NCBI RefSeq assembly: GCF_018861145.1
Contig: NZ_JAHKQT010000003.1
Coordinates: forward strand, 124,001-188,000
DNA from: Poseidonibacter lekithochrous
Lineage (GTDB): Bacteria > Campylobacterota > Campylobacteria > Campylobacterales > Arcobacteraceae
Length of the DNA: 64,000 bases
Direction of reading: 5' to 3'
Numbering within the stretch: position 1 is the first letter of the stretch; every line of letters begins with the position of its first letter. Of this stretch, positions 5,196-20,549 are shown piece after piece. The translations under genes were made by a program, and so were the position numbers. Below the pieces are notes generated by a model. That model saw only the letters and a program-made list of their open reading frames with translations. It was not told the DNA's origin and searched no databases.

Positions 5196-5254
5196 AATCT
5201 TTTTCCTTTTTATAGTTATTAATTAATATGTTTTCTTTAATTTAATAAAGCGAA

Positions 5255-6139
5255 TTACTTCGCTTTACTTTGTGCAAATAATGCATCCATTTTTTGCTCA
5301 TATTCGTGGTAACCTAACATATCGTAAAGCTCCATTCTTGTTTGCATTAAGTCTAAAGTACCTTCTTGTGTACCTTTTTCTCTTAAGTCTTGGTATACAG
5401 TTAAAGCAGCTTTATTCATTGCTCTAAATGCTGATAATGGGTAAAGTACCATTTCAATACCAACTGAACCTAATTCTTCAGTAGTAAACATTGGAGTTGC
5501 ACCGAATTCAGTAATATTTGCTAATACTGGAACTGTCATTTGATCACAAAATTCTTTATATTCTTTTAATGTATGAACAGCTTCTGCAAAAATTGCATCT
5601 GCACCAGCTTCAACATAAGCTTTTGCACGAGCAACTGCTGAAGCTTGACCTTCAGATGCGTGTGCATCAGTTCTTGCAATAATATAGAAATCTGGGTCTA
5701 ATTGCATTTTTGCATCAACCGCAGCTCTAATTCTGTCACACATTTCTTCAGTAGTTACTAACTCTTTATTAGGTCTGTGTCCACATCTTTTAGCAGCAAC
5801 TTGATCTTCAATATGAAGTCCAGCAGCACCAGATCTGATAAATTCTTTAACAGTTCTTGCAACATTGAATGCATGTCCCCAACCTGTATCAGCATCAACA
5901 ATTACTGGTGTATCACATATAGAAGTAATTCTTCTAATATCAATACAAACATCTTCAATCATTGTCATACCTAAATCTGGTAAACCATATGATGCATTTG
6001 CAATTCCTCCACCTGAAAGGTAAATTGCTTTATAACCAACTTTTGTAGCTTGTAATGCTTGGTATGCATTAATTGTCCCTACGATTTGTAAAGGAGTCTC
6101 TTCACTTAAAGCTTTTCTAAATTTTTTTCCTGCGCTCAT
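5255..6139 (-). CDS. prpB: Methylisocitrate lyase PrpB
   Basis: PrpB splits 2-methylisocitrate into pyruvate and succinate, the last step of the methylcitrate cycle. The 294-residue product has the isocitrate-lyase/PEP-mutase fold: the metal-binding DADTGWG segment, the catalytic loop KRCGH and the [11 protein letters not shown] region. A good TCCTTC-complement ribosome site (GAAGGA) sits 6 bases before the ATG. It is the first gene of the cluster and is transcribed from a divergent intergenic region shared with an HTH regulator. Its succinate product could feed the Frd/Sdh complex encoded at 50-54 kb. Confidence 0.95.
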
Positions 6140-6168
6140 ATATATCCTTCAATATTTATTTGTGATTT

Positions 6169-6222
6169 ATTATACATCATTTCTACATAGTAGTAATGTA
6201 TTATTTCTGTATTGCAAAATAC
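6169..6222 (-). promoter_or_regulatory. prpB promoter and candidate operator
   Basis: On the minus strand a perfect TATAAT (6169-6174) places the start near 6162, about 22 bases before the prpB ATG. The -35 region is weak. Two inverted repeats lie upstream: TACAT-N7-ATGTA (6184-6200), over the -35 region, and GTATT-GCAA-AATAC (6209-6222), centred near -54. A weak -35 plus an upstream palindrome suits an activator. The obvious candidate binder is the HTH protein encoded divergently. The -10 is clear; the operator role is inference. Confidence 0.55.
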
Positions 6223-6257
6223 AACTTTTTCTACTATTGAGCTAATATGTACAATAT

Positions 6258-6285
6258 TTGTTTTTATGCTTTAAAATGGTACAAT
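6258..6285 (+). promoter_or_regulatory. Promoter of the divergent HTH regulator gene
   Basis: TTGTTT (6258-6263) and TACAAT (6280-6285), 16 bases apart, form a plausible sigma-70 promoter with a start near 6292. An AAAGG ribosome site (6302-6306) and the ATG at 6314 follow. A TGTACAAT motif (6248-6255) lies just upstream; the same octamer recurs in front of frdC. Confidence 0.5.
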
Positions 6286-6313
6286 CATCAATAAAGTTTA
6301 TAAAGGTATAAGA

Positions 6314-7291
6314 ATGAATTACAAAAGTTCAATTGATAAATTCATAGAAATATTTAAAAGATCAAACCTAAGTATTTCTAAATTTGCATCATTAATAAAT
6401 AAGGATAGAAGAACGGTTACCTCGTGGATTGACAATGTTACAGATATTGAGCCTAGTAATGAAATAAAAGATAAAATCTGTACGATTTTTAGATACCCAG
6501 ATTATATATGGGAAGAGGGTTGTAATAGTGATGAGTTCTTAAAATCAATAACACAAATCCCTCAAAAAGAAGTTAGAATTATTGATGAAGACTATTATGG
6601 GCGTTTAAAATACATAATGGAGCTAGAACAAAACAGAAGATTTGTTATTCAAGCACAGTTCCCTGGACCTATGTATAGAGATACGGCTGTACAAGAAGTG
6701 TACAGAACTAAGAGCAGTAAAGACATAGAAGAACTGAAATTAGCAAGAATTGACCAAATGCTTAGATATGACTATGATACTACAGAGTGGTACTCTATTA
6801 AATCAGTTTTATCTTTTTGTTTTGCAAGTATTGGTAACTTTTATTCTAAAGAAGAGAAGATTAAAATATTAGAACTTATATATGAGTTATTCAACAATAA
6901 CTATAATAAAAAACTTTTTCTTTTTGATTCCTTCTCAAGAAAAATATATGGAATGGAAACTACATATATTTCAATAAATGTAAAGCAAAAAATACTTTTC
7001 TTTAAATCCCCAATTGAATCTGTATTTATTGAAATAAGAAATAAAAATTTAGTTGAAAGAATGCATAAGTATTATAGTTCACCAATAGAAGCACCTTCTC
7101 ATGTTAACTTTTTAGAATCTGTAAAGATTATAAAAATATTACAAGATGCTTTAAAATATAATAATACTTTAGTTCAAGCTTATGAGATCATTAATAGAAC
7201 TACAGATTATGGTGAACTTTTCTATCATAACTTATCTATTGATTTACAAAAAGAAGTAAGTGCTCCAAAACCAGGTCAGCGAAGAAATTAA
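6314..7291 (+). CDS. HTH (XRE-like) transcriptional regulator, probable prp regulator
   Basis: This is a 325-residue protein with an N-terminal XRE-type helix-turn-helix at about residues 16-50 (ISKFASLINKDRRTVTSWID). The roughly 260-residue remainder is not recognised. It is rich in aromatic and basic residues and has no obvious enzyme motif. It is divergent from prpB with a shared regulatory gap, so it most likely controls propionate use, replacing the sigma-54-dependent PrpR or GntR-type regulators found elsewhere. The next gene, a LysE exporter, starts 2 bases after its stop, so the two are co-transcribed. The DNA-binding call is supported by sequence; the regulon is inference. Confidence 0.7.
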   Translation: MNYKSSIDKFIEIFKRSNLSISKFASLINKDRRTVTSWIDNVTDIEPSNEIKDKICTIFRYPDYIWEEGCNSDEFLKSITQIPQKEVRIIDEDYYGRLKYIMELEQNRRFVIQAQFPGPMYRDTAVQEVYRTKSSKDIEELKLARIDQMLRYDYDTTEWYSIKSVLSFCFASIGNFYSKEEKIKILELIYELFNNNYNKKLFLFDSFSRKIYGMETTYISINVKQKILFFKSPIESVFIEIRNKNLVERMHKYYSSPIEAPSHVNFLESVKIIKILQDALKYNNTLVQAYEIINRTTDYGELFYHNLSIDLQKEVSAPKPGQRRN

Positions 7292-7293
7292 TT

Positions 7294-7929
7294 ATGGATT
7301 ATTCAAGTTATATAAATGAATTTTCAATTATTGTTGCTGCTTTACTCTTAGCCCTATTATCTCCTGGACCAGATTTTGCAATGATTTTAAAGCAAAGTAT
7401 TACATATGGAAAGCGTGCATCAATTATCTCTAGTATTGGTATAGGTTTAGGAATTTCTGTGCATGTTATATATACTGTCTTGGGGATTGGTTTAATTATT
7501 TCAAAATCAATCATTTTATTTAATATAATCAAATATTTAGGTGCAGCTTATTTGATTTATCTTGGATATAACAGTTTAAAATCAAAGGGAATGAAACTTA
7601 ATGTTGAGGAGGGGTCTTTTACAAATGATATAAGTGATTTAAAATCTTTTTCTATTGGTTTTTTATGTAATGCTTTAAATCCAAAGGCAACTTTATTCTT
7701 TGTATCAATTTTTACAGTTGTTGTAAATATTGATACTCCTATGTATATTCAAGCAATTTATGGAATATTTTGTATTTTTGCAACGATGTTGTGGTTTATT
7801 GGTATATCTTTAATTTTAAGTAAAAAAAGTGTTAGAAAATTCTTTAATTCTTTTGGCATATGGTTTGATAGATCAGTTGGTGTTGTACTTATTGCTTTAG
7901 GTATAAAAGTTGCATTGAGTAAAGGATAA
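7294..7929 (+). CDS. LysE/RhtB family amino-acid exporter
   Basis: This is a 211-residue inner-membrane protein of the LysE/RhtB translocator family. It has about six hydrophobic segments and the family signature SPGPDFAMILKQS near residue 25. A second hallmark, LCNALNPKATLFF, lies mid-protein. Such proteins export amino acids or related metabolites by proton antiport; the substrate cannot be read from the sequence. It lies in a tight three-gene run (HTH regulator, exporter, TetR repressor) with gaps of 2 bases on either side, so it is probably controlled by one of the two regulators. Confidence 0.85.
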   Translation: MDYSSYINEFSIIVAALLLALLSPGPDFAMILKQSITYGKRASIISSIGIGLGISVHVIYTVLGIGLIISKSIILFNIIKYLGAAYLIYLGYNSLKSKGMKLNVEEGSFTNDISDLKSFSIGFLCNALNPKATLFFVSIFTVVVNIDTPMYIQAIYGIFCIFATMLWFIGISLILSKKSVRKFFNSFGIWFDRSVGVVLIALGIKVALSKG

Positions 7930-7931
7930 TT

Positions 7932-8507
7932 ATGAGTAGTTCACGAGATAAATTATTAGATATAGCACTTGAAGAGATTTATCAAAATGGTTATCATGGT
8001 ACATCAATAGATAAAATTCTTAAAAAAGCATCAATGAATAAAGGTTCTATTTATCATTTTTTCAAGTCAAAAAAAGAGCTTACTCTTGCAATTATAAATG
8101 AAAGAATAAGTATATATATAGAAGATAAATATACCGTTTTATTTAAATATGAAGAAAACATTATTGATGAGTTAATAAAACTTATTAAAAAAAGAGATAA
8201 TTTTAATTTTATTTCTGGTTGTAAACTTAATAACTTTGTTCAAGAATTATCCTCAAGTGATAATGATTTTAAGTTATCTCTTGAAAAAGTTTATTTTAGA
8301 TTTGAAGAGATTATCGAAGAAGTTTTAATAAAAGCTGTAAGTAAGAATGAAATAAAACATGATGATCTTAAAGCTTTATCTATCTATATAGTTGCTTCAA
8401 TTGAAGGCTGTTTAGGCACAGCTAAAAAATCACAAGATGAAAAAATATTTGAAACTTGTATCTCTCAACTAGAATTTTTTCTTAACAGTTTAAAAACTTC
8501 AAAATAA
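7932..8507 (+). CDS. TetR/AcrR family transcriptional repressor
   Basis: This 191-residue regulator has a canonical TetR N-terminal DNA-binding domain (residues about 5-50: ALEEIYQNGYHGTSIDKILKK, then NKGSIYHFFKSKKEL). A variable ligand-binding C-terminal domain with a lone cysteine (SGCKLNNF) follows. The layout resembles the short TetR regulators of the LmrA/YxaF or YcdC-like type. Two palindromes sharing an ACTAATTAGT core lie immediately downstream, at the promoter of an EamA exporter, and are the obvious operators. The TetR call is secure; the ligand is unknown. Confidence 0.9.
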   Translation: MSSSRDKLLDIALEEIYQNGYHGTSIDKILKKASMNKGSIYHFFKSKKELTLAIINERISIYIEDKYTVLFKYEENIIDELIKLIKKRDNFNFISGCKLNNFVQELSSSDNDFKLSLEKVYFRFEEIIEEVLIKAVSKNEIKHDDLKALSIYIVASIEGCLGTAKKSQDEKIFETCISQLEFFLNSLKTSK

Positions 8508-8517
8508 ATATCTTACG

Positions 8518-8541
8518 AATATTAACTAATTAGTTAATATT
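8518..8541. promoter_or_regulatory. TetR-type operator 1 (24-bp perfect palindrome)
   Basis: A perfect 24-base palindrome with core TTAACTAATTAGTTAA. It covers the -35 hexamer (TTAACT, 8522-8527) of the promoter whose -10 is TATACT (8546-8551, 18-base spacer). It lies just downstream of the TetR gene and shares its ACTAATTAGT core with operator 2. Centre-to-centre distance to operator 2 is 37 bp. Confidence 0.8.
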
Positions 8542-8551
8542 TTGATATACT
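8522..8551 (+). promoter_or_regulatory. Promoter of the EamA exporter/dehydrogenase pair
   Basis: TTAACT (8522-8527) and TATACT (8546-8551) are separated by 18 bases, predicting a start near 8558. The -35 lies in operator 1, and the start site and ribosome site lie in or beside operator 2, so repressor bound at either site would block RNA polymerase. Confidence 0.65.
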
Positions 8552-8552
8552 T

Positions 8553-8580
8553 CTTCACTTGACTAATTAGTCAAGTGAAG
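8553..8580. promoter_or_regulatory. TetR-type operator 2 (28-bp perfect palindrome)
   Basis: A perfect 28-base palindrome with core TTGACTAATTAGTCAA and outer arms CTTCACTTGA/TCAAGTGAAG. It spans the predicted transcription start (about 8558), and its right arm contributes the GAAGG ribosome site of the EamA gene (ATG at 8590). As RNA, the downstream arm would fold into a hairpin touching the ribosome site. Confidence 0.82.
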
Positions 8581-8589
8581 GAAAATTAA

Positions 8590-9474
8590 ATGTTTAACAT
8601 TAATATTAAAGATTTTTTATTACCAATAAGTTTTGTTTTTTTATATGGCAGTGGATTTATATTTACTCAATACGGATTGGTAAATACAAGTCCTATGGCA
8701 TTCCTAGCGATTAGATTTTTTATTGCGTTTTGTATTTTATTAATAATTACAAGCTTAGTAAAAGCTAAATGGCCAAAGACTATAAAAGAGTTTATTCATA
8801 TAAGTATTGCCGGGATGTTAACTGTTGGAACATTTTCAGTAGGAGTATATATGTCCATATCATATGGTATATCTGGTTCCTTGAATTCTTTGATTATCGC
8901 TTTACAACCAATACTTGTTTCTTTTTTAGCTTTTAAATTTTTGAATGAAACATCAGATGGAAAAATTTGGCTTGGTTTGTTTATAGGTTTTATTGGTGTT
9001 AATATTGTAGTAATCTCAAATATTGATACAAATATAGGAGCAATTACTGGAGTTACATGGTCCTTTATTGCACTTTTTGGGTTGAGTTTTGGTAATTTAT
9101 ATCAAAAAAAATACTGTAAAAAGATGAATTTATTTTCAGGAGGTGCAATTCAAACTCTTAGTTCAACAATTTTGGTATTACCTTTTTTATTATATGAAGA
9201 TATTAGAGTTTCTTGGAATTTAGAGTTTATTGTAGCTTTATTTTATATGGTAGTAGCAGTTAGTATTGGAGCCTTATCTCTTTTATATATAATGATTGAA
9301 AAAGGGGATGTTTCTAAGGTATCATCAATATTTTATTTGGTACCTGTTAGTGCCTCAATTGTTTCATATGTATTATTTGATGAGGCATTTAAATTAAGTA
9401 TTTTAATTGGTATAATCACTGTATTAATTGGAATGTTATTTATACATAAAAAAACAAAAAAAGGAAAAATATGA
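8590..9474 (+). CDS. EamA/DMT family transporter
   Basis: This is a 294-residue drug/metabolite transporter with ten predicted membrane helices in two EamA repeats, opening with FLYGSGFIFTQYGLVNTSPM. Members export amino acids, their catabolites or drugs. It follows two TetR-type operators and its end overlaps the D-2-hydroxyacid dehydrogenase gene by 4 bases (ATGA). Exporter and dehydrogenase are therefore co-expressed, and the substrate may be related to the dehydrogenase reaction; that link is inference. Confidence 0.88.
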   Translation: MFNINIKDFLLPISFVFLYGSGFIFTQYGLVNTSPMAFLAIRFFIAFCILLIITSLVKAKWPKTIKEFIHISIAGMLTVGTFSVGVYMSISYGISGSLNSLIIALQPILVSFLAFKFLNETSDGKIWLGLFIGFIGVNIVVISNIDTNIGAITGVTWSFIALFGLSFGNLYQKKYCKKMNLFSGGAIQTLSSTILVLPFLLYEDIRVSWNLEFIVALFYMVVAVSIGALSLLYIMIEKGDVSKVSSIFYLVPVSASIVSYVLFDEAFKLSILIGIITVLIGMLFIHKKTKKGKI

Positions 9475-10397
9475 AAATAGTAATTTTAGATAGAGCAACA
9501 TTAGGTTTTGATATGGATGTATCAATTTTTAATAGTTTAGGTGAAGTTACATCTTATGATATAACAAGTAAAGATGAAACTAAACAGAGAGTAAAAGATG
9601 CAGATATTGTAATTACAAATAAAGTTGTAATTTCTAAAGAGGATATGGATAACTCTTCAATAAAATTAGTTGCAATAACAGCAACAGGAACTAATAATGT
9701 AGATTTAGAATATGCTAAACAAAATAATATAGAAGTGAAAAATGTAGCTGGATATTCAAGCTCTTCTGTTTCTCAAGTTGCTTTTGGAATGATATTCCAT
9801 TTTGTACAAAAGTTAAATTATTATAAAGCTTATGTTGATGAGGGTAATTGGCAGAAATCAAAAATATTTACTCATATAGATAAACCATTCTTTGAACTTG
9901 ATGGGAAAAGAGTAGGTGTTATTGGTCTTGGTGATATTGGTTCATCATTTGCAAAAAGAGTAAAAGCATTTGATTGTGATATTGTATATTATTCTACAAG
10001 TGGAAGAAATAATAACAGTGAATTTAAAAGAGTTGAACTTGATGAGTTACTTAAAACAAGCGATATTATTTCAATTCATTGTCCTTTAAATAAACAAACA
10101 GAAAATTTGTTAAATTATGAAAATATGAAAACAATGAAAGACGGCGCAATTTTATTAAACCTTGGTCGTGGTGGAATTATAAATGAAGAAGATTTGAGTG
10201 TATTAATAGATGAAAAAGAAATTTATTGTGGAATAGATGTAGTAAATAAAGAACCAATTGAAAAATCAAATCCTTTGCTTAAAATAAAAAATAAAGATAG
10301 ATTACTTTTAACTCCTCATATTGGATGGGCAACTATAGAAGCTAGAACTAGACTTATAAAAATGGTAGCAGATAATATAAAAGAGTTTATTAAATAA
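9471..10397 (+). CDS. D-2-hydroxyacid dehydrogenase (NAD-dependent)
   Basis: This 308-residue enzyme reduces a 2-oxo acid to the D-2-hydroxy acid. The Rossmann motif GVIGLGDIGSSFAKRVKAF lies near residue 145. Catalytic residues of the family are visible: Arg in LLNLGRGG, Glu near the CGIDVVNKEP segment, and His in LLTPHIGWAT. The N-terminal part (ITATGTNNVDLEYA) resembles glycerate dehydrogenase/hydroxypyruvate reductase (HprA) more than lactate or phosphoglycerate dehydrogenase, and no ACT domain follows. Its start overlaps the EamA stop, so it belongs to the TetR-controlled unit. Confidence 0.85.
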   Translation: MKIVILDRATLGFDMDVSIFNSLGEVTSYDITSKDETKQRVKDADIVITNKVVISKEDMDNSSIKLVAITATGTNNVDLEYAKQNNIEVKNVAGYSSSSVSQVAFGMIFHFVQKLNYYKAYVDEGNWQKSKIFTHIDKPFFELDGKRVGVIGLGDIGSSFAKRVKAFDCDIVYYSTSGRNNNSEFKRVELDELLKTSDIISIHCPLNKQTENLLNYENMKTMKDGAILLNLGRGGIINEEDLSVLIDEKEIYCGIDVVNKEPIEKSNPLLKIKNKDRLLLTPHIGWATIEARTRLIKMVADNIKEFIK

Positions 10398-10418
10398 TTT
10401 AATAAAAATAGTTAATTA

Positions 10419-10451
10419 AACTAAGTTTAGTTAAAATAACTAATTATTAGT
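10419..10451. promoter_or_regulatory. Two short palindromes upstream of the response regulator
   Basis: AACTAA-GT-TTAGTT (10419-10432) and ACTAA-TTA-TTAGT (10439-10451) lie in the 75-base gap before the response-regulator gene. They resemble half-sites of the TetR-type operators 1.9 kb upstream (ACTAATTAGT), but their spacing differs, so binding by the same repressor is uncertain. AT-rich context makes chance a real possibility. A strong GGGAG ribosome site follows. Confidence 0.35.
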
Positions 10452-10472
10452 ATCTTTGTTTAGGGAGTAGAA

Positions 10473-11231
10473 ATGAAAGAATTATTATCTCAGATTAATT
10501 TATTATACGTTGAAGATGATGATGAGATACGTTTTGCTTTACAAAGAGTACTAGAACGAAAAGTTAAAAACTTATATGTAGGAGAGAATGGGCAAGAAGG
10601 ATATGAAAAGTTCTTAGAATTTTCTCCTGATATAATACTTACAGATATAAAAATGCCAATAATGGATGGTATTGAAATGTCGAGAAAAATTAAAGAGATT
10701 AATCCTAATATCCCTATAATCATGGCATCTGCACATAGTGAATCTGCACTTTTATTAGAATGTATAGATATTGGAATAGATGATTACTTGTTAAAACCTA
10801 TTCAAAGAGATAAACTTTTAGAGATGTTCTCATCAAATATGAAAATAATTTTATTTAATAAAGAAAAAGAGAGGCATCAAAAGTTACTACAAACGGTTAT
10901 AGACCTACAGGCTAGTATAATATTCTCATATGATGAATCAAAGAAAACTTTATTTGCAAATAAGCTTTTTTTAGATTTCTTTAATAAAGATAACATACTT
11001 GATGGTAAATTATTATACGAAGAATTAAGAAATAATAAAAATGTTACTTTAACTGATGTTAATGAAGAGATATCTTGGCTTGATTATATGTTTTTACACC
11101 CAGAACAAGATTTTCGTATTAAAATTAATAAAGACAATATTGATATAAACTTCATAGTTAAAACAAAAAAAATAGTTCAAGATGATGGAAAAAATATATT
11201 TGTTATTACATTAGTAGAGTTAAAAATTTAA
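10473..11231 (+). CDS. Response regulator, REC domain with degenerate PAS-like tail
   Basis: The 252-residue protein has an N-terminal receiver domain (residues about 5-125): acidic pair EDDDE, phospho-acceptor Asp58 in ILTDIKMP, Ser/Thr in MASAHSE and Lys in LLKPI. The remaining 120 residues look like a short linker helix and a PAS-like fold without a DNA-binding or enzymatic output domain. The whole is alignable with the first half of the REC-GGDEF protein two genes downstream. It may be a phosphate sink or adaptor for the kinase between them. The start is preceded by GGGAG. Confidence 0.85.
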   Translation: MKELLSQINLLYVEDDDEIRFALQRVLERKVKNLYVGENGQEGYEKFLEFSPDIILTDIKMPIMDGIEMSRKIKEINPNIPIIMASAHSESALLLECIDIGIDDYLLKPIQRDKLLEMFSSNMKIILFNKEKERHQKLLQTVIDLQASIIFSYDESKKTLFANKLFLDFFNKDNILDGKLLYEELRNNKNVTLTDVNEEISWLDYMFLHPEQDFRIKINKDNIDINFIVKTKKIVQDDGKNIFVITLVELKI

Positions 11232-11244
11232 AAAAGGTACTAAA

Positions 11245-13362
11245 ATGAATAATAAAAAAGCAATCTTATCTCCTTTAATATTAACTACATTCCTTTTAGG
11301 TTTAATATTTTCTATTTTTGTTTATATGTATATTGTAGATATGGAAACTAAATCAAGTAAAATAAAGTTTGATAATTTAGTTGAACGAGAACTTCTATCA
11401 ATTGAAAAAGAACTCGAATTAAATGTAAATGTATTGTATGCATTAAAAAGTTATCATAAAACAGTAGGTAAGTTAACAAGAGAAGAATACAATCTTTTTA
11501 CATCAAGGTTAATAAAAGAGAAAAGGAGTATTCAAGGTGTATCTTGGATTCCACGTGTAGTAGATAAGGATAGAAAAGAGTTTGAATCAAATAGAACTAA
11601 AGAATTAGGCTTAGATATTTTTATAAAAGAAAAAACTGATGATGGAAAGATAGTAAGAGTAAAAAGAAAGAAAGAGTATTTTCCTGTTGATTTCGTAGAA
11701 CCTTTAGCTGGAAATAAAATTGCATATGGCTTTGATATATCTTCTAATAAAACAAGACTTGATGCATTAACTTTAGCTAGAGAAACAAATACAATGTTAG
11801 CAACAGGAAGAATACAACTAGTGCAAGATATAGAAAATAAATTTGCTTTTTTAGTTCTTTTACCAGTTTTTGAAAAAAACACTTCATCTTTAGAAGGCTT
11901 TTATACAGGAGTATTTAGAATCAAACCTTTGGTAGAAAATGCTATAAAATTTAGGAAAAATGATTCTTTAATGTTAAATATACGATTAGTTGATACAACA
12001 AATGGTATTTCAAAGCTTTTATATACAAATAGTGATAAGGATTTTGTTTCTAAAAAAGCTATTGATCTTAATATATTAGGTAGAACATGGACTTTATACT
12101 CGCAACCAAGCGAAAAACTTCTAAGCACAAATAATTTTTATTTATCAAATATCTTATTGGCACTTTGTTTATTTATTACATTTTTAGTTACTTATATTTT
12201 AATTATAAAAAATAAAGATAGTCAACTTTCAAGAAAAAAGCTTGAAGAATTGCTTTTTATGTTTGATAAAAAGGTTATAGCTTCACATACTGATAAAGAA
12301 GGTATTATTACTTATGCTACTAAAGCATTTTGTGAGATAAGTGGATATTCAAAAGAAGAACTATTAGGACAAGATCAAAGAATTGTGATACATGAAGATA
12401 TGTTTGATGGTACATATGAAAAAGTATTAGAAACTATTTCAAAAGGTGAAATATATACAGGCGAGATTAAAAATAAAAGAAAAGATGGAACTTTTTATTA
12501 TGTTAATAGTACTATTTTCCCAGAAAAAAATGATGAATCAGAAATAACTGGTTATTTTGCAATAAGAGAAGATATAAGTGCTAAAAAAGAAGTAGAATTA
12601 TTTAATGACACTCTTTCTTTAAAAGTAGAACAAGAAGTAGAAAAAAATTTAAAAAAAGATAAGCTTTTATTACAACAATCAAAATTAGCAGCAATGGGTG
12701 AAATGATCGGAGCAATAGCTCATCAATGGAGACAGCCTTTAAATACTTTAGCTATTAAATTACAATTTGTTGTTGATGATTATGAAGATGGACTAGTAGA
12801 TAAAAAATATTTAGATAATCATTCTAGGGAGGGTATGAATCTAGTTAATTTTATGTCAAAAACTATTGATGACTTTAGAAATTTTTTCAATATTGAGAAA
12901 GCTAAAACTACATTTGATATTAAAACAAAGGTTTTAGAAACAACAAATATTTTATCTTCACAGCTATCAAAATATGATATAAAAGTTGAAGTTTTAGGAA
13001 ATACTTTTGATTTTTATGGTCATGCAAGTGAATTCCAACAAGTGATATTGAATATTGTAAATAATGCAAAAGATGCATTAGTTGAAGAAGAAATTGTAAA
13101 TGGAGTTATTAAAGTTGATATAAAATCAGATAAAGAGTATGGATATATTATTATCTCTGATAATGCAGGTGGAATTGAATCATCTGTTTATGAGCGTATT
13201 TTTGAACCATATTTTACAACTAAAGAACAAGGTAAAGGGACAGGACTTGGTTTATATATGTCTAAAATGATTATTGAAGACAATATGCAAGGTGAGCTTA
13301 GTGCTAAGAATAATAAAGACGGGGCAGAATTTATGATTAAATTCAGAATTAAAAATGGATAG
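11245..13362 (+). CDS. CHASE-PAS hybrid sensor histidine kinase
   Basis: This 705-residue membrane kinase has an N-terminal helix (about 7-30) and an extracytoplasmic CHASE domain (about 40-285; IQGVSWIPRV segment). A second helix (about 298-318), a PAS domain (about 335-450) and a HisKA-like helix with phospho-acceptor His493 in the HQWRQPLN box follow. An HATPase domain carries the N box (NIVNNAKDAL), G1 (DNAGGI) and G2 (GKGTGLGLYMSK). CHASE domains sense small molecules. Its stop overlaps the REC-GGDEF gene by 8 bases, and a response regulator precedes it, so the three form one signalling operon. Confidence 0.93.
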   Translation: MNNKKAILSPLILTTFLLGLIFSIFVYMYIVDMETKSSKIKFDNLVERELLSIEKELELNVNVLYALKSYHKTVGKLTREEYNLFTSRLIKEKRSIQGVSWIPRVVDKDRKEFESNRTKELGLDIFIKEKTDDGKIVRVKRKKEYFPVDFVEPLAGNKIAYGFDISSNKTRLDALTLARETNTMLATGRIQLVQDIENKFAFLVLLPVFEKNTSSLEGFYTGVFRIKPLVENAIKFRKNDSLMLNIRLVDTTNGISKLLYTNSDKDFVSKKAIDLNILGRTWTLYSQPSEKLLSTNNFYLSNILLALCLFITFLVTYILIIKNKDSQLSRKKLEELLFMFDKKVIASHTDKEGIITYATKAFCEISGYSKEELLGQDQRIVIHEDMFDGTYEKVLETISKGEIYTGEIKNKRKDGTFYYVNSTIFPEKNDESEITGYFAIREDISAKKEVELFNDTLSLKVEQEVEKNLKKDKLLLQQSKLAAMGEMIGAIAHQWRQPLNTLAIKLQFVVDDYEDGLVDKKYLDNHSREGMNLVNFMSKTIDDFRNFFNIEKAKTTFDIKTKVLETTNILSSQLSKYDIKVEVLGNTFDFYGHASEFQQVILNIVNNAKDALVEEEIVNGVIKVDIKSDKEYGYIIISDNAGGIESSVYERIFEPYFTTKEQGKGTGLGLYMSKMIIEDNMQGELSAKNNKDGAEFMIKFRIKNG

Positions 13363-14680
13363 TAAATATATAAAGAAAATAAATCTTTTATATGTTGAGG
13401 ATGAAGAGTCTGTTAGAGAAATATTGTCTAAAAAGTTAGAAAGATTTGTTAAAGAATTATATGTTGCAAAAGATGGAGAAGATGGATATTCAAAATATTT
13501 AGAACTTAAACCTGATATTATTTTAACTGATATTACTATGCCAAAATTAAATGGTATAGAAATGTCAAAAAAAATTAGAGAAGATAATAAAACTATACCT
13601 ATTATTATCATCTCAGCCCATTCTGATTCTAACTTTTTAATAGATGCAATTGATTGTGGAATAACAAGCTATTTACTTAAACCAATAAATAAAAATAAAC
13701 TTTTAGATTTATTAGAAGTAAATGCAAAAAATGTTTACTTAGATAAAATAAATATTTTGCAGCAAAAAAAGATTGAAGAACAACAAAGTATTCTTCAAAA
13801 TATTATAAATGTTGAACAAAATATATCTTTTGTAACTGATTTTAAAAGCTTATCCTTTGTAAATAATGCATTCTTAAACTTTTTTGATATTGAAAGTAAG
13901 GAAAAGTTTGGAGAAAAGTTTGAAAATATTGAAGATATATTTATTGAAAATATTGATTATGTTCATAAAAAGCTAATTAATAACTATTCAGAAATAGACA
14001 ATCAATCTTTTGGAAAAGACTTTTTTGAAGTTATAAATAATCTAAATGCTGAAAAAAGAGTTGTTTTACTTTTTGATAAAAATAATGATAAAAAGTCATT
14101 TTATTTGACAATATCAATAATTGATAATGATAAAGAGTTGTATTTAATAAACCTAACGGATATTACAAGTATAAAAAATGAACGATATTCAATTGAACAA
14201 AAAGCGTATCATGATGGATTAACAAATCTATATAACAGACATAAATTTAATGAATTATTTGAAATAGAATTAGCAAGAGTAAAAAGATATAAACATCCTT
14301 TATCAATGGCAGTATTAGATATTGACAATTTTAAGATATTCAATGATACATATGGCCATTTAAAAGGTGATGAAATTTTAATTAAGATAGGAAATAGTTT
14401 AAATCCACAGTTAAGAATAACAGATATTTTTGCAAGATGGGGTGGAGAAGAGTTTGTTATCTTATTTATAGAAACAAAATTAGAAAATGCTATACAGTGT
14501 TCAAATAATATTAGAAAAAATATAGAAAATTTAGAAAATGATTTAGATACTAAAGTAACTGTTAGTTTTGGTGTCTCTGAATATAAAGATAATGATACTC
14601 TTGAAAGTTTGTTTGCAAGATGTGATAAAGCTCTATATAGTGCAAAAGAAAAAGGTAGAAATAGAGTAGAATTTTCTTAA
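13355..14680 (+). CDS. REC-PAS-GGDEF diguanylate cyclase response regulator
   Basis: This 441-residue protein has a receiver domain (phospho-acceptor Asp59 in ILTDITMP, LLKPI lysine), a PAS-like middle (about 140-275) and a C-terminal GGDEF domain with intact GGEEF (residues 363-367). The RITD inhibitory-site motif lies five residues before GGEEF, so product inhibition by c-di-GMP is expected. The start overlaps the kinase gene, giving a simple route from the CHASE signal to c-di-GMP. The GGDEF call is secure; the partner assignment is from gene order. Confidence 0.94.
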   Translation: MDSKYIKKINLLYVEDEESVREILSKKLERFVKELYVAKDGEDGYSKYLELKPDIILTDITMPKLNGIEMSKKIREDNKTIPIIIISAHSDSNFLIDAIDCGITSYLLKPINKNKLLDLLEVNAKNVYLDKINILQQKKIEEQQSILQNIINVEQNISFVTDFKSLSFVNNAFLNFFDIESKEKFGEKFENIEDIFIENIDYVHKKLINNYSEIDNQSFGKDFFEVINNLNAEKRVVLLFDKNNDKKSFYLTISIIDNDKELYLINLTDITSIKNERYSIEQKAYHDGLTNLYNRHKFNELFEIELARVKRYKHPLSMAVLDIDNFKIFNDTYGHLKGDEILIKIGNSLNPQLRITDIFARWGGEEFVILFIETKLENAIQCSNNIRKNIENLENDLDTKVTVSFGVSEYKDNDTLESLFARCDKALYSAKEKGRNRVEFS

Positions 14681-14698
14681 TTAAACTTAAAATTCTAC
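14666..14698. terminator. Hairpin between convergent genes
   Basis: GTAGAATTTT (14666-14675) and AAAATTCTAC (14689-14698) form a perfect 10-bp stem with a 13-base loop. It spans the ends of the diguanylate cyclase gene and the convergent GMC oxidoreductase gene. There is no long U-run on either side, so any bidirectional terminator activity would be modest. Confidence 0.45.
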
Positions 14699-16356
14699 AC
14701 TAAATTTTCATAATTTTCTTTGATATAAGATGCCACTCTAAAAGAGTTGGCATAAATTGTAAAGGTAAAAGGAACAGAACCTCCACTTGGCATAAAACTT
14801 CCATCTGTTACAAAAAGATTTTTAACTTCATGTGCTTGGCAATATTTATTTAAAACTGAAGTTTTAGGGTCATCTCCAAATCTACAACCACCTGCTTGTA
14901 AGTTTGAAGAAGGAAGTGCATTTATATTACTTTGGATATTTTTTGCACCCATTTGTTTTAAAATACTAACTGCTTTTTTTGCTAAAAAGTTTGATACTTC
15001 TAAATCATGTTTTAAAGTTCCTATTCTTATATTTGCAACTGGTGTTCCGTATTTATCTTTGTACTTTTCATCTACACTTACAAAAGAATTATCATTTGGA
15101 GTCCAATCTGCAAATATTTCCATGTTTAAAGTTTTTGTTTTTGTAAAAGAAGTATAAAGTTTGTCTTGTAACTCTTTGCCAATTAAAAGTTTATTTAAAT
15201 CCTTTTCATCCCATTTAAAAAAGTTTGCTCGTCTTATTGGATTTGCATGTTCAAAAACCATTTCAACCATTCCACCTTTAAAATCCTTTGTAAAATAAAA
15301 ATCTTTTATTGCTCTATTTACAAAAAGTCCCGGAGTCATTAACTCTTTTAAAGGTATAGCGCTTTGATCAAATGTTCCTGTAACTATTCCTCCACTTGAA
15401 GAGAGTAGATTTTTTCCTACATTTAAAGAATTGTTAGCAACTCCATTTGGGAAGTTTTCATCTTTTGAATTTAACAATAATCTTGAAGACTCAACAGCTT
15501 GAGCTGCTAGAATAAAAAGCTTTGCTTTTAACTCTTTTTTATTTCCATCTTTTGTTAAGTATGTAGCTTGGGTAATTTTTTTATCTGTATTTGTATGTAG
15601 TTTAATCACATTTGCATTTGTAATAATTGTAAGATTATTCGTTTTTATAGCAGGAAGTATTAAAGCTTCTCTTGAACTTCCTTTTGCTCCACTAGAACAT
15701 CCGTAAGAACCACAATAATTTGAATAATAACAAGCACTTCTATGCTTGAAATCTTCACTTATAATTGCTCGTGGTGTTTTTACAATACTAAAGTTTAATT
15801 CTTTTGATGCTTTATCTATTAGTTTTGTAATTGGATGTTCATCTAAAGCTTTAAAAGGAAAAGCTTTTGAGCTTCTAGGCTCTTGATGTACATAAGTTGA
15901 AACTTCACCAGATACTCCAATAAGTTTTTCAACTTTATCATAATATATTTCCATATCATCATACGTTATTGGCCAATCAGTGATATTTGAATCTTTTATT
16001 TTTCCATATTTAGAAGCTAATTTGAAATCATCAGGTTTTAATCTATAGAAAAATCCACTCATAAAATTTGAAGAACCACCTACTAAGTTTCCATTATTAA
16101 AATCCCAACCCGTATCATATGTAGGAAATTTAGTCCATTTATTATCAACAAACTCTTCAATAGTATGGTATTCATCTTTTAATTTTGGATTATAAACACT
16201 TCTTCTATTAACAGCTAATTCATCTTTTGAAAAATCATCTCTTTTATAGAAGTCACCTTTTTCTAAAACACAAACCTTATGTCCTTGTTTTGATAACTCA
16301 TAAATAATAGGACCAGCTCCTGCTCCACTTCCTATTACACAAATATCATACATCAT
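14695..16356 (-). CDS. GMC family oxidoreductase (gluconate/sugar dehydrogenase-like large subunit)
   Basis: This 553-residue flavoprotein opens with the FAD-binding motif GSGAGAGPIIYELSKQG. It shows the GMC features GGSSNFMSG, GCSSGAKGSS and a C-terminal FVTDGSFMPSGGSVPFTFTI segment with the catalytic region. Its upstream neighbour is a Tat-exported gluconate 2-dehydrogenase subunit-3-like protein that starts one overlap earlier. The pair resembles the two-subunit periplasmic gluconate dehydrogenase of Campylobacter jejuni (Cj0414/Cj0415). The large subunit has no signal of its own and presumably rides with the Tat partner. The substrate could be another sugar acid or alcohol; no cytochrome subunit is adjacent. 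Confidence 0.85.
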   Translation of the reverse strand: MMYDICVIGSGAGAGPIIYELSKQGHKVCVLEKGDFYKRDDFSKDELAVNRRSVYNPKLKDEYHTIEEFVDNKWTKFPTYDTGWDFNNGNLVGGSSNFMSGFFYRLKPDDFKLASKYGKIKDSNITDWPITYDDMEIYYDKVEKLIGVSGEVSTYVHQEPRSSKAFPFKALDEHPITKLIDKASKELNFSIVKTPRAIISEDFKHRSACYYSNYCGSYGCSSGAKGSSREALILPAIKTNNLTIITNANVIKLHTNTDKKITQATYLTKDGNKKELKAKLFILAAQAVESSRLLLNSKDENFPNGVANNSLNVGKNLLSSSGGIVTGTFDQSAIPLKELMTPGLFVNRAIKDFYFTKDFKGGMVEMVFEHANPIRRANFFKWDEKDLNKLLIGKELQDKLYTSFTKTKTLNMEIFADWTPNDNSFVSVDEKYKDKYGTPVANIRIGTLKHDLEVSNFLAKKAVSILKQMGAKNIQSNINALPSSNLQAGGCRFGDDPKTSVLNKYCQAHEVKNLFVTDGSFMPSGGSVPFTFTIYANSFRVASYIKENYENLV

Positions 16357-16847
16357 AATTTTTTTCCATATCTTCTTTTAGGTTTTGGGTAGCCTATTTT
16401 ATGATTTATGCTTTTCCATCCAATTTGATTTGTATTTCCATTGTAAATAGGGTCTGATAGCATTGCTTCAATTCCAAAATATACTAGTTTTGAAAGCCAA
16501 GTATTAGCATAATCATTGTCATTTACAATTGAGTAAATTAATTCTTTTTTTTCTTCATTAGTTAAATTCAAAAACTTTGGAAAGCTTCTTATAAAACTAG
16601 TTGTGCCATTAATGATTAAATCTTTATCATAATCTAAAAAAGTTTTATGGTTTATTGTAGAAAATAAAAATCCTAATGCATTAAACTCTTTTGAACTTGG
16701 CATATTTAAAGTCTTTGGAAATAGTATTTCATAAACTTCTTCTAAAACTAAGGCATTGTTTTTTGATATAGTTTTAGCAATAAGTGTCTCTTTTTGAAAT
16801 AATACAAGTCCAAGAATAGAAAACTTTATAAAGTTTCTTCTTTTCAT
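16353..16847 (-). CDS. Tat-exported gluconate 2-dehydrogenase subunit 3 family protein
   Basis: This 164-residue protein begins with a twin-arginine signal (MKRRNFIKFSILGL) and continues with the short helical domain typical of the gluconate 2-dehydrogenase subunit 3 family (EVYEILFP and YGIEAMLSDPIYNGN, then GWKSI). It is the escort subunit that takes the folded flavoprotein through the Tat pathway. ATGA overlaps join it to the GMC gene downstream and to a 38-codon ORF upstream. Confidence 0.82.
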   Translation of the reverse strand: MKRRNFIKFSILGLVLFQKETLIAKTISKNNALVLEEVYEILFPKTLNMPSSKEFNALGFLFSTINHKTFLDYDKDLIINGTTSFIRSFPKFLNLTNEEKKELIYSIVNDNDYANTWLSKLVYFGIEAMLSDPIYNGNTNQIGWKSINHKIGYPKPKRRYGKKL

Positions 16848-16960
16848 AAACCTATCTTATTTAATATTTTTTGAAAAAATGTTTTCTTCTCTTTCTTTTT
16901 AGCCCTTATTTTATTTGATAATTCTTTTAATCTTTTAGGTTCAAATAACTGCTCTTTCAT
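16844..16960 (-). CDS. Small ORF of 38 residues, lysine-rich, translationally coupled
   Basis: This short reading frame starts with an ATG that overlaps the stop of the OmpA-domain gene (ATGA), and its TGA overlaps the ATG of the Tat-signal gene. It fills the gap between those genes exactly. The peptide begins MKEQLFEPKRLKEL and is about one third Lys plus Arg, with a likely amphipathic helix and no signal peptide. No family is recognised. The double 4-base coupling and the absence of internal stops favour a real gene; its short length keeps the confidence moderate. It could equally serve only to hand ribosomes on to the next gene. Confidence 0.6.
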   Translation of the reverse strand: MKEQLFEPKRLKELSNKIRAKKKEKKTFFQKILNKIGL

Positions 16961-18216
16961 TTTTTGTTGCCTAAAAAGTTTTGAAGTTCTTTTATTGCAG
17001 TTTCATTTTTAATTCTAAATTTTATTTCAATTCTTCTTGAATTATCTTTATCTTCTACACCATTTTTATAAATAATATCAGAGTAAGACCTACCACTTGC
17101 ATTTACATACTTCTCTAAAAGTGCCTTATCTACAATTTGTGAAGTATATAAAAACTGCATAACTTCTAAGGCTCTTTGTTGAGAAAGAGCAAGGTTATCT
17201 AAGTAAGATCCATCAGAGTTTGTATGTCCTTCAATTGTAATACTATGAATATATTTTCTTATACTTTCATCATCAAGTAAGGCTTGTAAGTATTTTTTTA
17301 AAACTAAACTAAGTTCTTTTTTTGATTCTTCTTTTAATGTATATTCACCCTGATCAAAAAGAATATTTGAAGAAAATGTAATAGCACCACTTTTTTCATC
17401 TATATTTATTGATTTCCCTAGCTTATCTTTTAGTTTTGATATTACTGTAATTTTAATACCTGTTAGATGTTTGATTTTTACTTTTGTTATATCAAACTCT
17501 TCTACAAGTTTTTGATGAAGTTTACTTTGAATTAGTATTTTATTTTCAAGCATTAAAAGTTCTTCATCTTTTAATGAAATCATATTTTTTTGATTTTCAA
17601 ATTTTGTTGAAAGTTCTGTATTTGTATCTTTTTGTTCTTTAACTTGAAGTTCATAATCAAATAATAAAGCTTTTAATTTATCTATTTCTTCATTATTTAA
17701 ATGTATTTGTGATGTTTTTTCTAAAAGTATATTTCTTTCATCTTCAAGATTTTTATTTAGAAGTTTTATATTGTTTTCTTTATCTTCTAAAATGGCAGTT
17801 ATCTTTTCAATTTGTTCAGTTGATATTGCTAAGTTCTTATTTTTTGTTTCTAACTCTTGATTTAACTTATTAGCTAATATCTTTTCTTCTTCTAATTGTA
17901 GTTTTGTTTCATTAAACATATTTTTAGATTTAGCTAATTCAAATGATAAATGAATCTTCTCTTCTTGAATTTTTTGAAGTTGTGTATTTACAATATTAAG
18001 TTTTTTCTTTTTATTTAAAAGTTCTTCTTCACTTAAATTTAAAGCATCTTTTTGTTCTTGTAAATTAGTTTTAATTACTTTTAAATCTGTTTGAGCATAA
18101 AGATATTTTATAATAATTGCACCAATTACTAAAATAAATACAAAAAGTAATCCCGCCATTAAATCAGCATAAGATATCCAAAAATTTTCTTCATTGCTTT
18201 GTTTTTTATCATACAT
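16957..18216 (-). CDS. ZorB/MotB-like motor protein: one helix, long coiled coil, OmpA-type peptidoglycan-binding domain
   Basis: The 419-residue protein has a short cytoplasmic start and a single membrane helix preceded by an Asp in FWISYADLMAGLLF (the plug/proton-site region of MotB and ZorB proteins). A predicted coiled coil of about 200 residues (about 38-250) and a C-terminal OmpA-like domain (about 275-410; IEGHTNSDGSYLDNLALSQQ and RRIEIKF) follow. It lies 5 bases downstream of a MotA/TolQ/ExbB-type gene, so the two should form a proton-driven 5:2-type motor anchored to the cell wall. The FWISYADLMAGLL start is ZorB-like. The coiled coil is much longer than in known ZorB. Confidence 0.85.
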   Translation of the reverse strand: MYDKKQSNEENFWISYADLMAGLLFVFILVIGAIIIKYLYAQTDLKVIKTNLQEQKDALNLSEEELLNKKKKLNIVNTQLQKIQEEKIHLSFELAKSKNMFNETKLQLEEEKILANKLNQELETKNKNLAISTEQIEKITAILEDKENNIKLLNKNLEDERNILLEKTSQIHLNNEEIDKLKALLFDYELQVKEQKDTNTELSTKFENQKNMISLKDEELLMLENKILIQSKLHQKLVEEFDITKVKIKHLTGIKITVISKLKDKLGKSINIDEKSGAITFSSNILFDQGEYTLKEESKKELSLVLKKYLQALLDDESIRKYIHSITIEGHTNSDGSYLDNLALSQQRALEVMQFLYTSQIVDKALLEKYVNASGRSYSDIIYKNGVEDKDNSRRIEIKFRIKNETAIKELQNFLGNKK

Positions 18217-18221
18217 AGTGA

Positions 18222-19442
18222 CTACTTTTGCATCTCTTTAAATTCTTTTAAATCTTCTATTATTTTAGCTGTTTCTTCATCTATTGATTCTAAAGAATTT
18301 TCAAGTTTTTGGGAGAATTTAGTATCATATTCATCTAATTCTTTATTAAATCGCCAACCAATTCTATCCATTTCATTTTTCATAGTTTCAATACTTTTTA
18401 CGATATTTGTGTAAATAAGTTCTAGATTTTTTGTACTTATATTTTCTAAGGCTTGATTTAATTCTTTTACATTATTATTTAAAAGTTTTGTGTATTCAGT
18501 ATGAATTTCTTTTTCTTCTCGAAAGTTTTCTATTTTTGTATGTATGTTTGTATTTAGTGTGTCAATCATAGAAGCTAGTTTTTCACTGTTTGCAATATTA
18601 TCACTAACTTTTGAAGATAAAGTTAACTCTTTTTCTAAAATATTTTCAAGTAAATCTACTCTTTTTTCTATTGAAGTATTAATATTATCTAAGATATCTT
18701 TTGATGTAAGTTGCTCAAAAATATGAGTCATTTTTGCGAAGTTTTCTATATTACTTTTTATATTAATTGATTCAATATCTATTTTTGTCCAAAAGAAAGA
18801 TTTAGTATTTTCAGTAATTACAAAGCAGTCATGCTCAAATCTACTCATTCCAAACTTTTCAAAAAAAGTCCACCAAATTGATAAAAATATTCCATAAATT
18901 GATACATAAAAGGCAGTTCCAACTCCACCTAAAAGTAAAGTAATCTCTTCTTCTAAAGCACTAGAAGTTCCAGATGAAAAATCAGGCATAGAAAAAGCAA
19001 TAGATATAAAAGTTCCTAAAATACCAAGAGTTGGAAATATCCCTGATGCAATTGATGAAAAGTTTGTATTTCTAATATTGCTTGTAAAATCTTTTAAAAA
19101 ATCATCTGCACTACCATTCGCTTTTGTAGTATCTCCAATTGTTAAAAGGTTGTTATTTATATATTCTTTTAAATAGAAAACTAATTCTTCATAAGAAGTT
19201 CTAAATTTACAAGAAACATAATAAGCGTTATGTCTAATAAAAAATAAATAAATAAAGTAAATAAAGCCTATTAAAATTACACTATGTATTTCAACTTTTA
19301 ATGGAAAATGTCCCAAATATCCTAATATTATAATAGCGAATAATATAGTTGGTACTGTAAGTAGAGTGAAAATTCTAGCTATTGCTTTGCATGATGTGTT
19401 GACTTTTGTATTTAAGTCAATAAAGTCTTCGTTTGTTAACAT
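18222..19442 (-). CDS. ZorA/MotA-like (MotA/TolQ/ExbB family) proton channel protein
   Basis: The 406-residue protein has four membrane helices (about 22-43, 51-70, 128-150 and 168-190). The last two match the MotA/TolQ/ExbB proton channel core (GIFPTLGILGTFISIAF and GGVGTAFYVSIYGIF). A helical cytoplasmic tail of about 190 residues follows. ZorA proteins have this layout with longer tails. An upstream in-frame ATG at 19490 would add 16 residues but lacks a ribosome site and overlaps a likely -10 box. The ATG at 19442 has AAGGGA seven bases ahead and is preferred. No ZorC, ZorD or ZorE gene follows, so this is not a complete Zorya system. Confidence 0.83.
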   Translation of the reverse strand: MLTNEDFIDLNTKVNTSCKAIARIFTLLTVPTILFAIIILGYLGHFPLKVEIHSVILIGFIYFIYLFFIRHNAYYVSCKFRTSYEELVFYLKEYINNNLLTIGDTTKANGSADDFLKDFTSNIRNTNFSSIASGIFPTLGILGTFISIAFSMPDFSSGTSSALEEEITLLLGGVGTAFYVSIYGIFLSIWWTFFEKFGMSRFEHDCFVITENTKSFFWTKIDIESINIKSNIENFAKMTHIFEQLTSKDILDNINTSIEKRVDLLENILEKELTLSSKVSDNIANSEKLASMIDTLNTNIHTKIENFREEKEIHTEYTKLLNNNVKELNQALENISTKNLELIYTNIVKSIETMKNEMDRIGWRFNKELDEYDTKFSQKLENSLESIDEETAKIIEDLKEFKEMQK

Positions 19443-19486: not shown

Positions 19487-19649
19487 GCATAGTTATGTAA
19501 ATGGTAAATGAAATATAATGATAAATGATGATATATTTTGTAAAACAAAGCCGTATAAAGAAATATAAAAAGATTTCTAGATGATTTTATGTTTTAACTT
19601 TCTAAAGATAAATTTGAATATTGGAAATCACAAATTGTGACTCCCATAA

Positions 19650-20447
19650 TTATATTGATGAATCAATATGTATAAAATTATTTGCTCTAAATTCAGTTAA
19701 GCTACGAAATGTATATTTATCAACTATTTTCATCATTTCTTTCCATCCAGATTTGCCATAATAATAGAATTTAAATTTTGATTGAATGATATCATTTGAT
19801 CTTTGATTAATATAGTCTTCAAAATATGAACTGTCTGTTATTCCAATTGAGTGACCAAAAATTATAATCTCATTTTTTTTATTAAATTCTTTTTTTATAT
19901 TATGTTTTCCATAGTTCTTATTATAAGCTTTTTTTAAAAAAATATGTTCTTCATCACCTAATCTCGCCTTATCTTCTACACCAAAAATAATATCTTTATC
20001 TTCTATTGACCCATGAACATAGTAATGTTTATTTTCTATATTTTGAATATTTAAAATCTCTGCAACTTTAAATACTGAATTTGTATAGTTAAAGTTAAAA
20101 ATAGTATCTACCTTATCAATTTCTTCTTTTAATATTTCAAATGCTTTTGAATCTTGATTTATATCTTTTTCTTGTGCTTCTTTTAAATAATTCATTAAAG
20201 ATAATCTTATTTCATTAAAATTATCTTCTATATCTAAGTTTTTATTTTTAACTTTTATTGAATAGTTATTTAATTCATTTTCAATATCAACCCAATTATT
20301 TAATTCATTTTTTTCATTAAAATATTCAGCCATATTATTTCTCTTTGCAACTAAATCTTTAAAATGTTCACTTTGAATAAAATCTTTGTAACTTGTCTTA
20401 AGACCTAAATTCAAATCAAATCCATTACCTATAATTAATATTTTCAT
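19650..20447 (-). CDS. AbiH family protein (phage abortive-infection family)
   Basis: The 265-residue protein carries the AbiH family start (ILIIGNGFDLNLGLKTSYKDF), the W.DIE segment (NWVDIENEL), the central FNFNYT motif, the YVHGSIED loop and the IIIFGHSIGITD motif. AbiH of Lactococcus gives abortive infection against phage; the biochemical activity is not established. The first in-frame start (upstream, near 20486) lacks a ribosome site; the ATG at 20447 follows AGGA at good spacing, and TATAAT (20476-20481) lies upstream. It is read in the same direction as the ZorA-like gene 200 bases downstream and is divergent from recQ. Confidence 0.82.
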   Translation of the reverse strand: MKILIIGNGFDLNLGLKTSYKDFIQSEHFKDLVAKRNNMAEYFNEKNELNNWVDIENELNNYSIKVKNKNLDIEDNFNEIRLSLMNYLKEAQEKDINQDSKAFEILKEEIDKVDTIFNFNYTNSVFKVAEILNIQNIENKHYYVHGSIEDKDIIFGVEDKARLGDEEHIFLKKAYNKNYGKHNIKKEFNKKNEIIIFGHSIGITDSSYFEDYINQRSNDIIQSKFKFYYYGKSGWKEMMKIVDKYTFRSLTEFRANNFIHIDSSI

Positions 20448-20475
20448 TTTCATCCTAATATTTAAGTGATAGAAT

Positions 20476-20481
20476 ATTATA
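20476..20481 (-). promoter_or_regulatory. -10 box of the AbiH gene
   Basis: A perfect TATAAT on the minus strand, predicting a start near 20469 and a leader of about 22 bases before the ATG at 20447. No clear -35 is visible. Confidence 0.45.
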
Positions 20482-20549
20482 TACAAATTTAAAATAAAAT
20501 AGTTAATAAAATACTAAATTAATAAATACACACCTAACCCACGATATGC

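Follow-up and report, generated by a model that had tools for sequence, protein, structure and literature searches.

The five-gene chain and its products

The DNA analyzed here is a window of 64,000 nucleotides (positions 124001-188000 of its contig) from the 3.0-Mb genome of Poseidonibacter lekithochrous (G000). At 14695-19442, on the minus strand, it carries five open reading frames (ORFs) in a chain, which encode a ZorA-like motor subunit (A), a ZorB-like subunit (B), a protein of 38 amino acids (aa), a twin-arginine translocation (Tat) escort and a GMC-family dehydrogenase. This order, with 4-base overlaps running from the motor protein through to the GMC gene, was described in an earlier reading of the same DNA (the original prediction) and agrees with the ORF coordinates: there are 4-bp overlaps at the junctions B/small gene, small gene/escort and escort/GMC, and A and B are separated by a gap of 5 bp without overlap. 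Based on our analysis, the motor genes belong to a real, conserved and little-noticed family that can be misread as the phage-defence system Zorya; the family is mostly chromosomal, separate from Zorya and spread across the relatives of Campylobacter, and its motor genes usually precede the gene of an undescribed microprotein.

The ZorA-like gene (18222-19442, minus strand) encodes 406 aa and matches Pfam MotA_ExbB (4.3e-6) and PADLOC ZorA (2.3e-13). An alternative in-frame ATG at 19490 would give a protein of 422 aa; the 406-aa version is preferred because a Shine-Dalgarno-like AAGGGA lies directly 5' of the start at 19442 and the alignments of homologues begin at residue 1 of that version. 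The nearest named relatives are Poseidonibacter ostreae (94% in A) and Arcobacter vandammei (60%). The protein contains four transmembrane (TM)-like segments (24-42, 51-69, 128-146 and 169-187), and its MotA_ExbB channel core is followed by a helical cytoplasmic tail of about 215 aa. T144 is found in all 49 homologues and S181 in 47 of them, and in an alignment to the PDB Zorya chains these residues fall on the 'GTF' and 'AF..S' positions of ZorA. The pair has the residues of the 5:2 ion-motor superfamily, a TM Asp on B and a polar Thr/Ser on A.

The ZorB-like gene (16957-18216, minus strand) encodes 419 aa with a single TM helix (18-36) and the motif NFWISYADLM, a MotB-like start. D18 is present in 47 of the 49 homologues, and the residues that anchor B to peptidoglycan are kept as well (R348 in 49/49, R394 in 47/49). 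The TM helix is followed by a helical stalk at about 40-250 and by an OmpA-like peptidoglycan-binding domain at about 270-402; there is no proline in the whole protein and no glycine from residue 32 to 253. The AlphaFold2 model of B, made from a five-row alignment, has a mean predicted local distance difference test score (pLDDT) of 71, with values of about 90 at residues 100-190 and below 50 around 42-57. It shows one helix at 8-211 and another at 219-269 followed by the OmpA-like fold, and its five best PDB matches in Foldseek are all ZorB. These matches, together with those to Pfam OmpA (1.4e-11) and PADLOC ZorB (1.2e-54), confirm the identity first given to the protein, ZorB-like with an OmpA domain. 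About 200 helical residues correspond to ~30 nm, which fits a stalk that would be long enough to cross the periplasm if it stands upright, so the predicted helix is in line with the extra segment of ~200 residues that had been proposed to reach that far. Among homologues B varies between 316 and 469 aa, where the stalk is variable and the OmpA-like domain constant. The lengths of the A tail and the B stalk show a weak negative correlation (rho -0.34, p 0.016), which is uncorrected for relatedness and was not used. In two loci of the Campylobacteraceae-like family f10 (L096 and L118, genus g49) B has G in place of D18 and F in place of R394, with pair and synteny retained; this suggests decay or a misaligned divergent copy, with a possible loss of motor function.

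The third gene (16844-16960, minus strand) encodes a basic microprotein of 38 aa with a net charge of +9, and is the conserved third gene of the motor module. A first-round profile built from eight Arcobacteraceae-like copies matched 14 ZorB-adjacent ORFs at E<0.01, with no match among the remaining short ORFs, about 5,100 in number. This round is the fair test, because later rounds put only adjacent matches into the seed; the iterated profile matched 24 ZorB-adjacent ORFs and three more with a called start further upstream. With the weaker copies judged by eye, the microprotein is found in 30 of the 48 loci that could be scored, and is missing among these from f10, from genus g36, from a basal group (L038-L040 and L088) and from L036, L105 and L109. 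Its presence requires four changes on the A tree as against a mean of 14.7 in shuffles. The nonsynonymous rate (dN) is below the synonymous rate (dS) in all six pairs compared, with few sites in each, and the copies have in common an 'FxPKxL'-like start, a positive net charge and a C-terminal helix that is amphipathic, for example SFFQKLFRFIFRR. Judging from its sequence, the 38-aa ORF is a genuine gene, well above chance: the profile matches at the 3' end of ZorB and the dN/dS values bear out its original listing in the five-gene chain.

The last two genes encode a Tat-signal hitchhiker subunit, the escort (16353-16847, minus strand; 164 aa with KRRNFIK; Pfam Gluconate_2-dh3, 6.8e-5), and a GMC-family flavin adenine dinucleotide (FAD) dehydrogenase of 553 aa (14695-16356, minus strand; Pfam GMC C-domain, 1.9e-18). 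The latter matches FAD glucose and fructose dehydrogenases (4e-38) and keeps three 3Fe-4S cysteines (C209, C215 and C220), as in the glucose dehydrogenase of Burkholderia cepacia. The two proteins appear to be an ordinary periplasmic dehydrogenase of the direct-electron-transfer (DET) type, FAD-dependent and with a hitchhiker subunit. They follow A, B and the small gene only in G000, G005 and G006, which are closely related species. The motor occurs without an adjoining GMC pair in the congeners G001, G002, G004 and G007 and in G018, G024 and G031 of other genera; in the first six of these seven genomes a search for GMC homologues found none. In G003, GMC and escort are present at the same chromosomal site without any motor, and in G009, G011, G017 and G022 the GMC gene lies elsewhere in the genome, each time beside the escort (the last three without the motor). 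The motor and GMC units are independent, because the presence or absence of the GMC pair does not follow the motor, and on this pattern a single five-gene system was rejected. The new effector arrangement with a GMC flavoenzyme, which was one of two alternatives in the original prediction, is therefore not upheld, as the enzyme is linked to the motor in three related species only and exists without it; the dehydrogenase genes are an incidental neighbor of the motor.

Distribution and surroundings of the motor

With a cut-off of E<=1e-20, 26 of the 74 genera of the order contain homologues of B (93 of 249 genomes). In a sample of the phylum, 98 of 200 genomes contain such a homologue, all of the same order among the matches listed, and as far as tested the family is one of Campylobacterota. 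Within the genus, the trio of A, B and small gene is found in G000 and six congeners (G001, G002, G004, G005, G006 and G007). G008 and G009 have an A-B pair that has diverged (A is about 35% identical) and lack the small gene, and G003 has no motor pair. GGDEF genes adjoin the diverged pair in G008 and G009, as they do the chain in the window, where the gene past GMC is a convergent GGDEF response regulator; at 11245-14680 on the plus strand a CHASE-PAS histidine kinase gene is followed by that of a GGDEF response regulator with an 8-bp overlap.

In family f10 the order nth, PpiC-type isomerase (peb4), fba, A, B was found in nine of nine loci examined, a region that we take to be Cj0595c-Cj0599 of C. 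jejuni. In the literature, cj0596 (peb4) is positioned between cj0595 and cj0597 (PMC2782263) and Cj0598 is given as function unknown (PMC5841378). For the Campylobacter pair (Cj0598/Cj0599 by synteny) we found incidental mentions only and no assigned function in the literature; in one text 'Cj0599' is named as the major outer membrane protein, apparently a mislabel. Within two genes of the motor, 131 neighbors were counted, among them fba (7), peptidyl-prolyl isomerase (7) and L,D-transpeptidase (6). The fba and isomerase counts reflect the f10 synteny. The L,D-transpeptidase neighbors are of two kinds. In genus g10 the gene stands beside A and is divergently transcribed in all nine genomes checked (loci L034, L086, L087 and L117 among them); in genus g67 it follows B, downstream, in three of six genomes. 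In G138 (g47) such a gene lies about 3 kb upstream of the motor. These neighbors fit a peptidoglycan-anchored motor, although they are suggestive only.

In the window genome the motor is surrounded by AbiH, RecQ, escort, GMC and GGDEF genes. The AbiH gene (PF14253, 2.2e-26) lies at 19650-20486 on the minus strand, the same strand side as the motor, and is found in two of ten genomes of the genus, G000 and G001, at the same site. The two copies are 95% identical whereas the flanking motor is 75% identical, so that AbiH can be regarded as recently transferred defence cargo. A PADLOC scan of the 131 neighbors gave few, scattered and non-recurrent matches elsewhere, some of them to general families (cyclase domains, DEDDh exonuclease), and a defence island was rejected on this result. 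Searches of plasmid and phage records with the window proteins found no homologue, and a mobile or prophage origin was likewise rejected. A Campylobacter-like ZorB query against plasmids found only distant OmpA/MotB/ZorB proteins (<35% identity), and one contig of a viral collection (IMGVR_UViG_3300042516_006151; L152, 5001-5342) has a partial 37% match to the C-terminal domain of B.

The relation to Zorya was examined through motor subunits, effectors and phylogeny. Both subunits match the PADLOC ZorA and ZorB models, and Zorya chains are the top matches in a PDB sequence search with A and B. The window pair does not reach the curated NCBIfam Zorya cut-offs (35 vs 250 bits and 76 vs 400 bits), and with the NCBIfam ZorA2 model a genuine type II copy from the same order (G179) scores 383 bits vs about 30-45 bits for this family. 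Of the effectors (ZorC and ZorD for type I, ZorE for type II, ZorF and ZorG for type III) none adjoins the motor at the window locus, and ZorC (PF15611) is also absent from G000, so the lack of ZorC, ZorD and ZorE effectors stated in the original prediction holds. ZorC is above cut-off in one of the 249 genomes, G046, which is without this ZorB, and in none of the 93 genomes that carry it; this genome-wide search was for ZorC and not for ZorD, ZorE, ZorF or ZorG. The 49 homologues come out as one group in the ZorA tree (support 86/88); type II Zorya and its relatives form a separate group (98/93) and MotA/ExbB/TolQ lie outside (99/94), hence A belongs neither to the type II clade nor to that of MotA. 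Membership in Zorya was rejected on the missing effectors, the lack of co-occurrence with ZorC and the separation from type II.

ZorAB-like loci of other kinds were seen in further genomes. Locus L146 of G046, a genome of the same order (5184-12436, minus strand), has a type I-like Zorya set with ZorA (645 aa), ZorB (239 aa), ZorC (451 aa) and a ZorD-sized protein (1073 aa) in order, and is a good reference for comparison. At L150 (5363-9351, G062) a ZorA2-like/ZorB pair is followed by two genes that look TerD-type by eye (191 and 428 aa); this is possibly a different effector arrangement, as no ZorE-like gene was seen adjacent by eye, without a profile check. At L149 (5546-9060, G152, family f13) a 920-aa ZorA-like and a 250-aa ZorB protein are encoded directly after an ExbB/ExbD-like pair, and large ZorA-like copies resembling it are present in G142, G054, G036, G068 and G131.

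Possible function of the motor

The mechanism that we consider fairly probable is that the chain consists of two unrelated modules that are co-transcribed in a small number of related species, the first being a stand-alone ion-driven 5:2 envelope motor with a stalk and often a microprotein. The stand-alone ion-driven machine was the other alternative of the original prediction, and at the level of sequence it finds support. The 5:2 assembly, the rotation and the type of ion are inferred by homology: five A subunits would surround a B dimer, and ion flow past D18 of B and T144/S181 of A would turn A relative to B. B would hold peptidoglycan through its OmpA-like domain, which sits at the tip of a helical stalk some 25-30 nm long; A would contribute its helical cytoplasmic tail, and the basic microprotein probably binds this tail or the inner membrane face. 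Such a motor probably serves to maintain the envelope or its peptidoglycan and not to defend against phage. The second module, escort and GMC, would be a Tat-exported dehydrogenase of the DET type that acts on sugars or alcohols and is functionally unconnected with the motor. A bolder version, which we offer tentatively, is an undescribed three-component rotary envelope machine of Campylobacterota for peptidoglycan or envelope remodelling: a ZorAB-type motor that arose, or remained, outside defence. Its stalk would span the periplasm and a dedicated microprotein would gate or tether the A tail, and Campylobacter-like bacteria would throughout retain the motor without the microprotein.

Several observations weigh against a stand-alone envelope motor separate from Zorya. 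The sole type I ZorA reference joins the 49 homologues on a branch of 6.2 changes per site with weak support (85/52). Zorya types I and II both attach inside the family in the ZorB tree, with branches of 4-6 changes per site and poor support, and this tree was not relied on for the question of Zorya relationship. The PADLOC ZorB model matches B strongly (183 bits), and AbiH sits 160 bp upstream of the motor in the window genome. The structure prediction of A is too poor to read (pLDDT 40), so its fold rests on homology. The motor has a patchy distribution in the taxonomic family to which the window belongs, where most sampled genera are without a copy; this points more to an accessory function than to an essential one in the envelope. 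Campylobacter-like genomes keep the A-B pair without the microprotein, which is therefore not universally needed. Finally, the L,D-transpeptidase link was picked post hoc from 118 Pfam families, and since genomes carry 2-14 such genes some chance neighbors are expected; the link is a lead, not proof.

One rival explanation is a minimal or diverged Zorya-type defence, in which the motor senses a breach of the envelope by phage and acts alone or with an effector encoded elsewhere. ZorA and ZorB are indeed the nearest known families by PADLOC, by NCBIfam and by PDB searches with sequence and with fold, and AbiH lies directly upstream in G000 and G001. Yet AbiH is recent cargo in two of ten congeners, the scores are far under the curated NCBIfam cut-offs, ZorC does not co-occur, the Campylobacteraceae-like loci have a fixed housekeeping synteny (9/9), PADLOC matches among the neighbors are few and non-recurrent, and the family is absent from the phage and plasmid records searched. 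These results disfavor the defence reading, and we judge a defence role of the motor unlikely and this form of it quite improbable. Part of what the original prediction named as refuting it, a housekeeping pair unlinked to defence, is thereby observed. A single five-gene system, with the motor driving or regulating a GMC flavoenzyme that is exported, agrees with the consecutive 4-bp overlaps and with the order kept in G005 and G006, but we hold it to be very improbable given that each unit is found without the other.

Another hypothesis is that the pair is an auxiliary stator for a flagellar motor or gliding machine, as the MotB-like N-terminal motif, the OmpA-like domain and the kinship to MotAB may suggest. 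We give it little credence: the window genome has six other MotA/ExbB/TolQ-family matches, one of them a separate 251-aa MotA-like protein (locus L004), A matches the shared channel core only and is apart from MotA in the tree, and the order includes many genomes without a copy. The pair may also couple force or energy to an outer-membrane process, similar to TolQR/TolA, ExbBD/TonB or SiiAB and with the stalk moving an outer-membrane partner; this would explain a stalk that can span the periplasm and is of variable length beside a constant OmpA-like domain. However, B ends in a peptidoglycan-binding fold, suggesting an anchor and not a mover, no outer-membrane partner or secretion gene recurs among the neighbors, and the genome has ExbB/TolQ-like genes of its own; this explanation is unlikely in our view.

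To our knowledge, phage defence is the only setting in which ZorAB motors have been described. A chromosomal family that is related to them, widely conserved and free of effectors would offer a non-defence comparison for the working of these motors and may help to place the origin of Zorya. It also means that defence-gene profiles can mislabel this pair as Zorya, and that the conserved microprotein is of the kind that is missed by short-ORF filters.

Comparison with known systems

The GMC/escort pair resembles the gamma-alpha complex of the B. cepacia FAD glucose dehydrogenase (PDB 6A2U; PMC6719666) in its GMC catalytic subunit, the three 3Fe-4S cysteines and the Tat hitchhiker. It differs in that Cys213 of the inter-subunit disulphide is replaced by Tyr in the window pair, and in that no multihaem cytochrome c subunit, as in DET-type dehydrogenases, is adjacent to the window GMC gene. 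For B, there is a weak match (2e-14, far below the curated cut-offs) to PRK09039-type peptidoglycan-binding proteins (NF006542-6545). The latter consist of a TM helix, a long helix and an OmpA domain, and we know of no microprotein linkage for them.

Flagellar MotAB and the generic ion transporters (GIT) ExbBD and TolQR share with the window pair the 5:2 ion-motor superfamily and the A-B gene pair, but A lies outside those groups in the ZorA tree. GIT B subunits are described without an OmpA-related domain (PMC12505986), and the window B has one. Type II ZorAB of Sulfuricurvum kujiense (PDB 8VVI) has the same motor core and is also from Campylobacterota; it differs in an A that begins directly at the channel core, in the ZorE that is expected there, and in its own clade. 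The closest solved relatives of both subunits are ZorA and ZorB, for which 5:2 assembly, ion flow and peptidoglycan binding were shown experimentally (PMC11890865). The window pair and type I ZorA5B2 (PDB 8QYD, 8VVN) both have a four-TM A with a cytoplasmic tail, the gene order A then B, and a B with the FWISYADLM motif, the critical Asp and an OmpA-like domain. In contrast to type I, the window locus is without ZorC and ZorD, has a microprotein after B and belongs to a group in the ZorA tree that the type I reference joins with weak support; its A is 406 aa compared with 729 aa in chain A of 8QYD, giving a shorter tail, and its B carries an extra stalk of about 200 residues, where ZorB1 models are about 240 aa in length.

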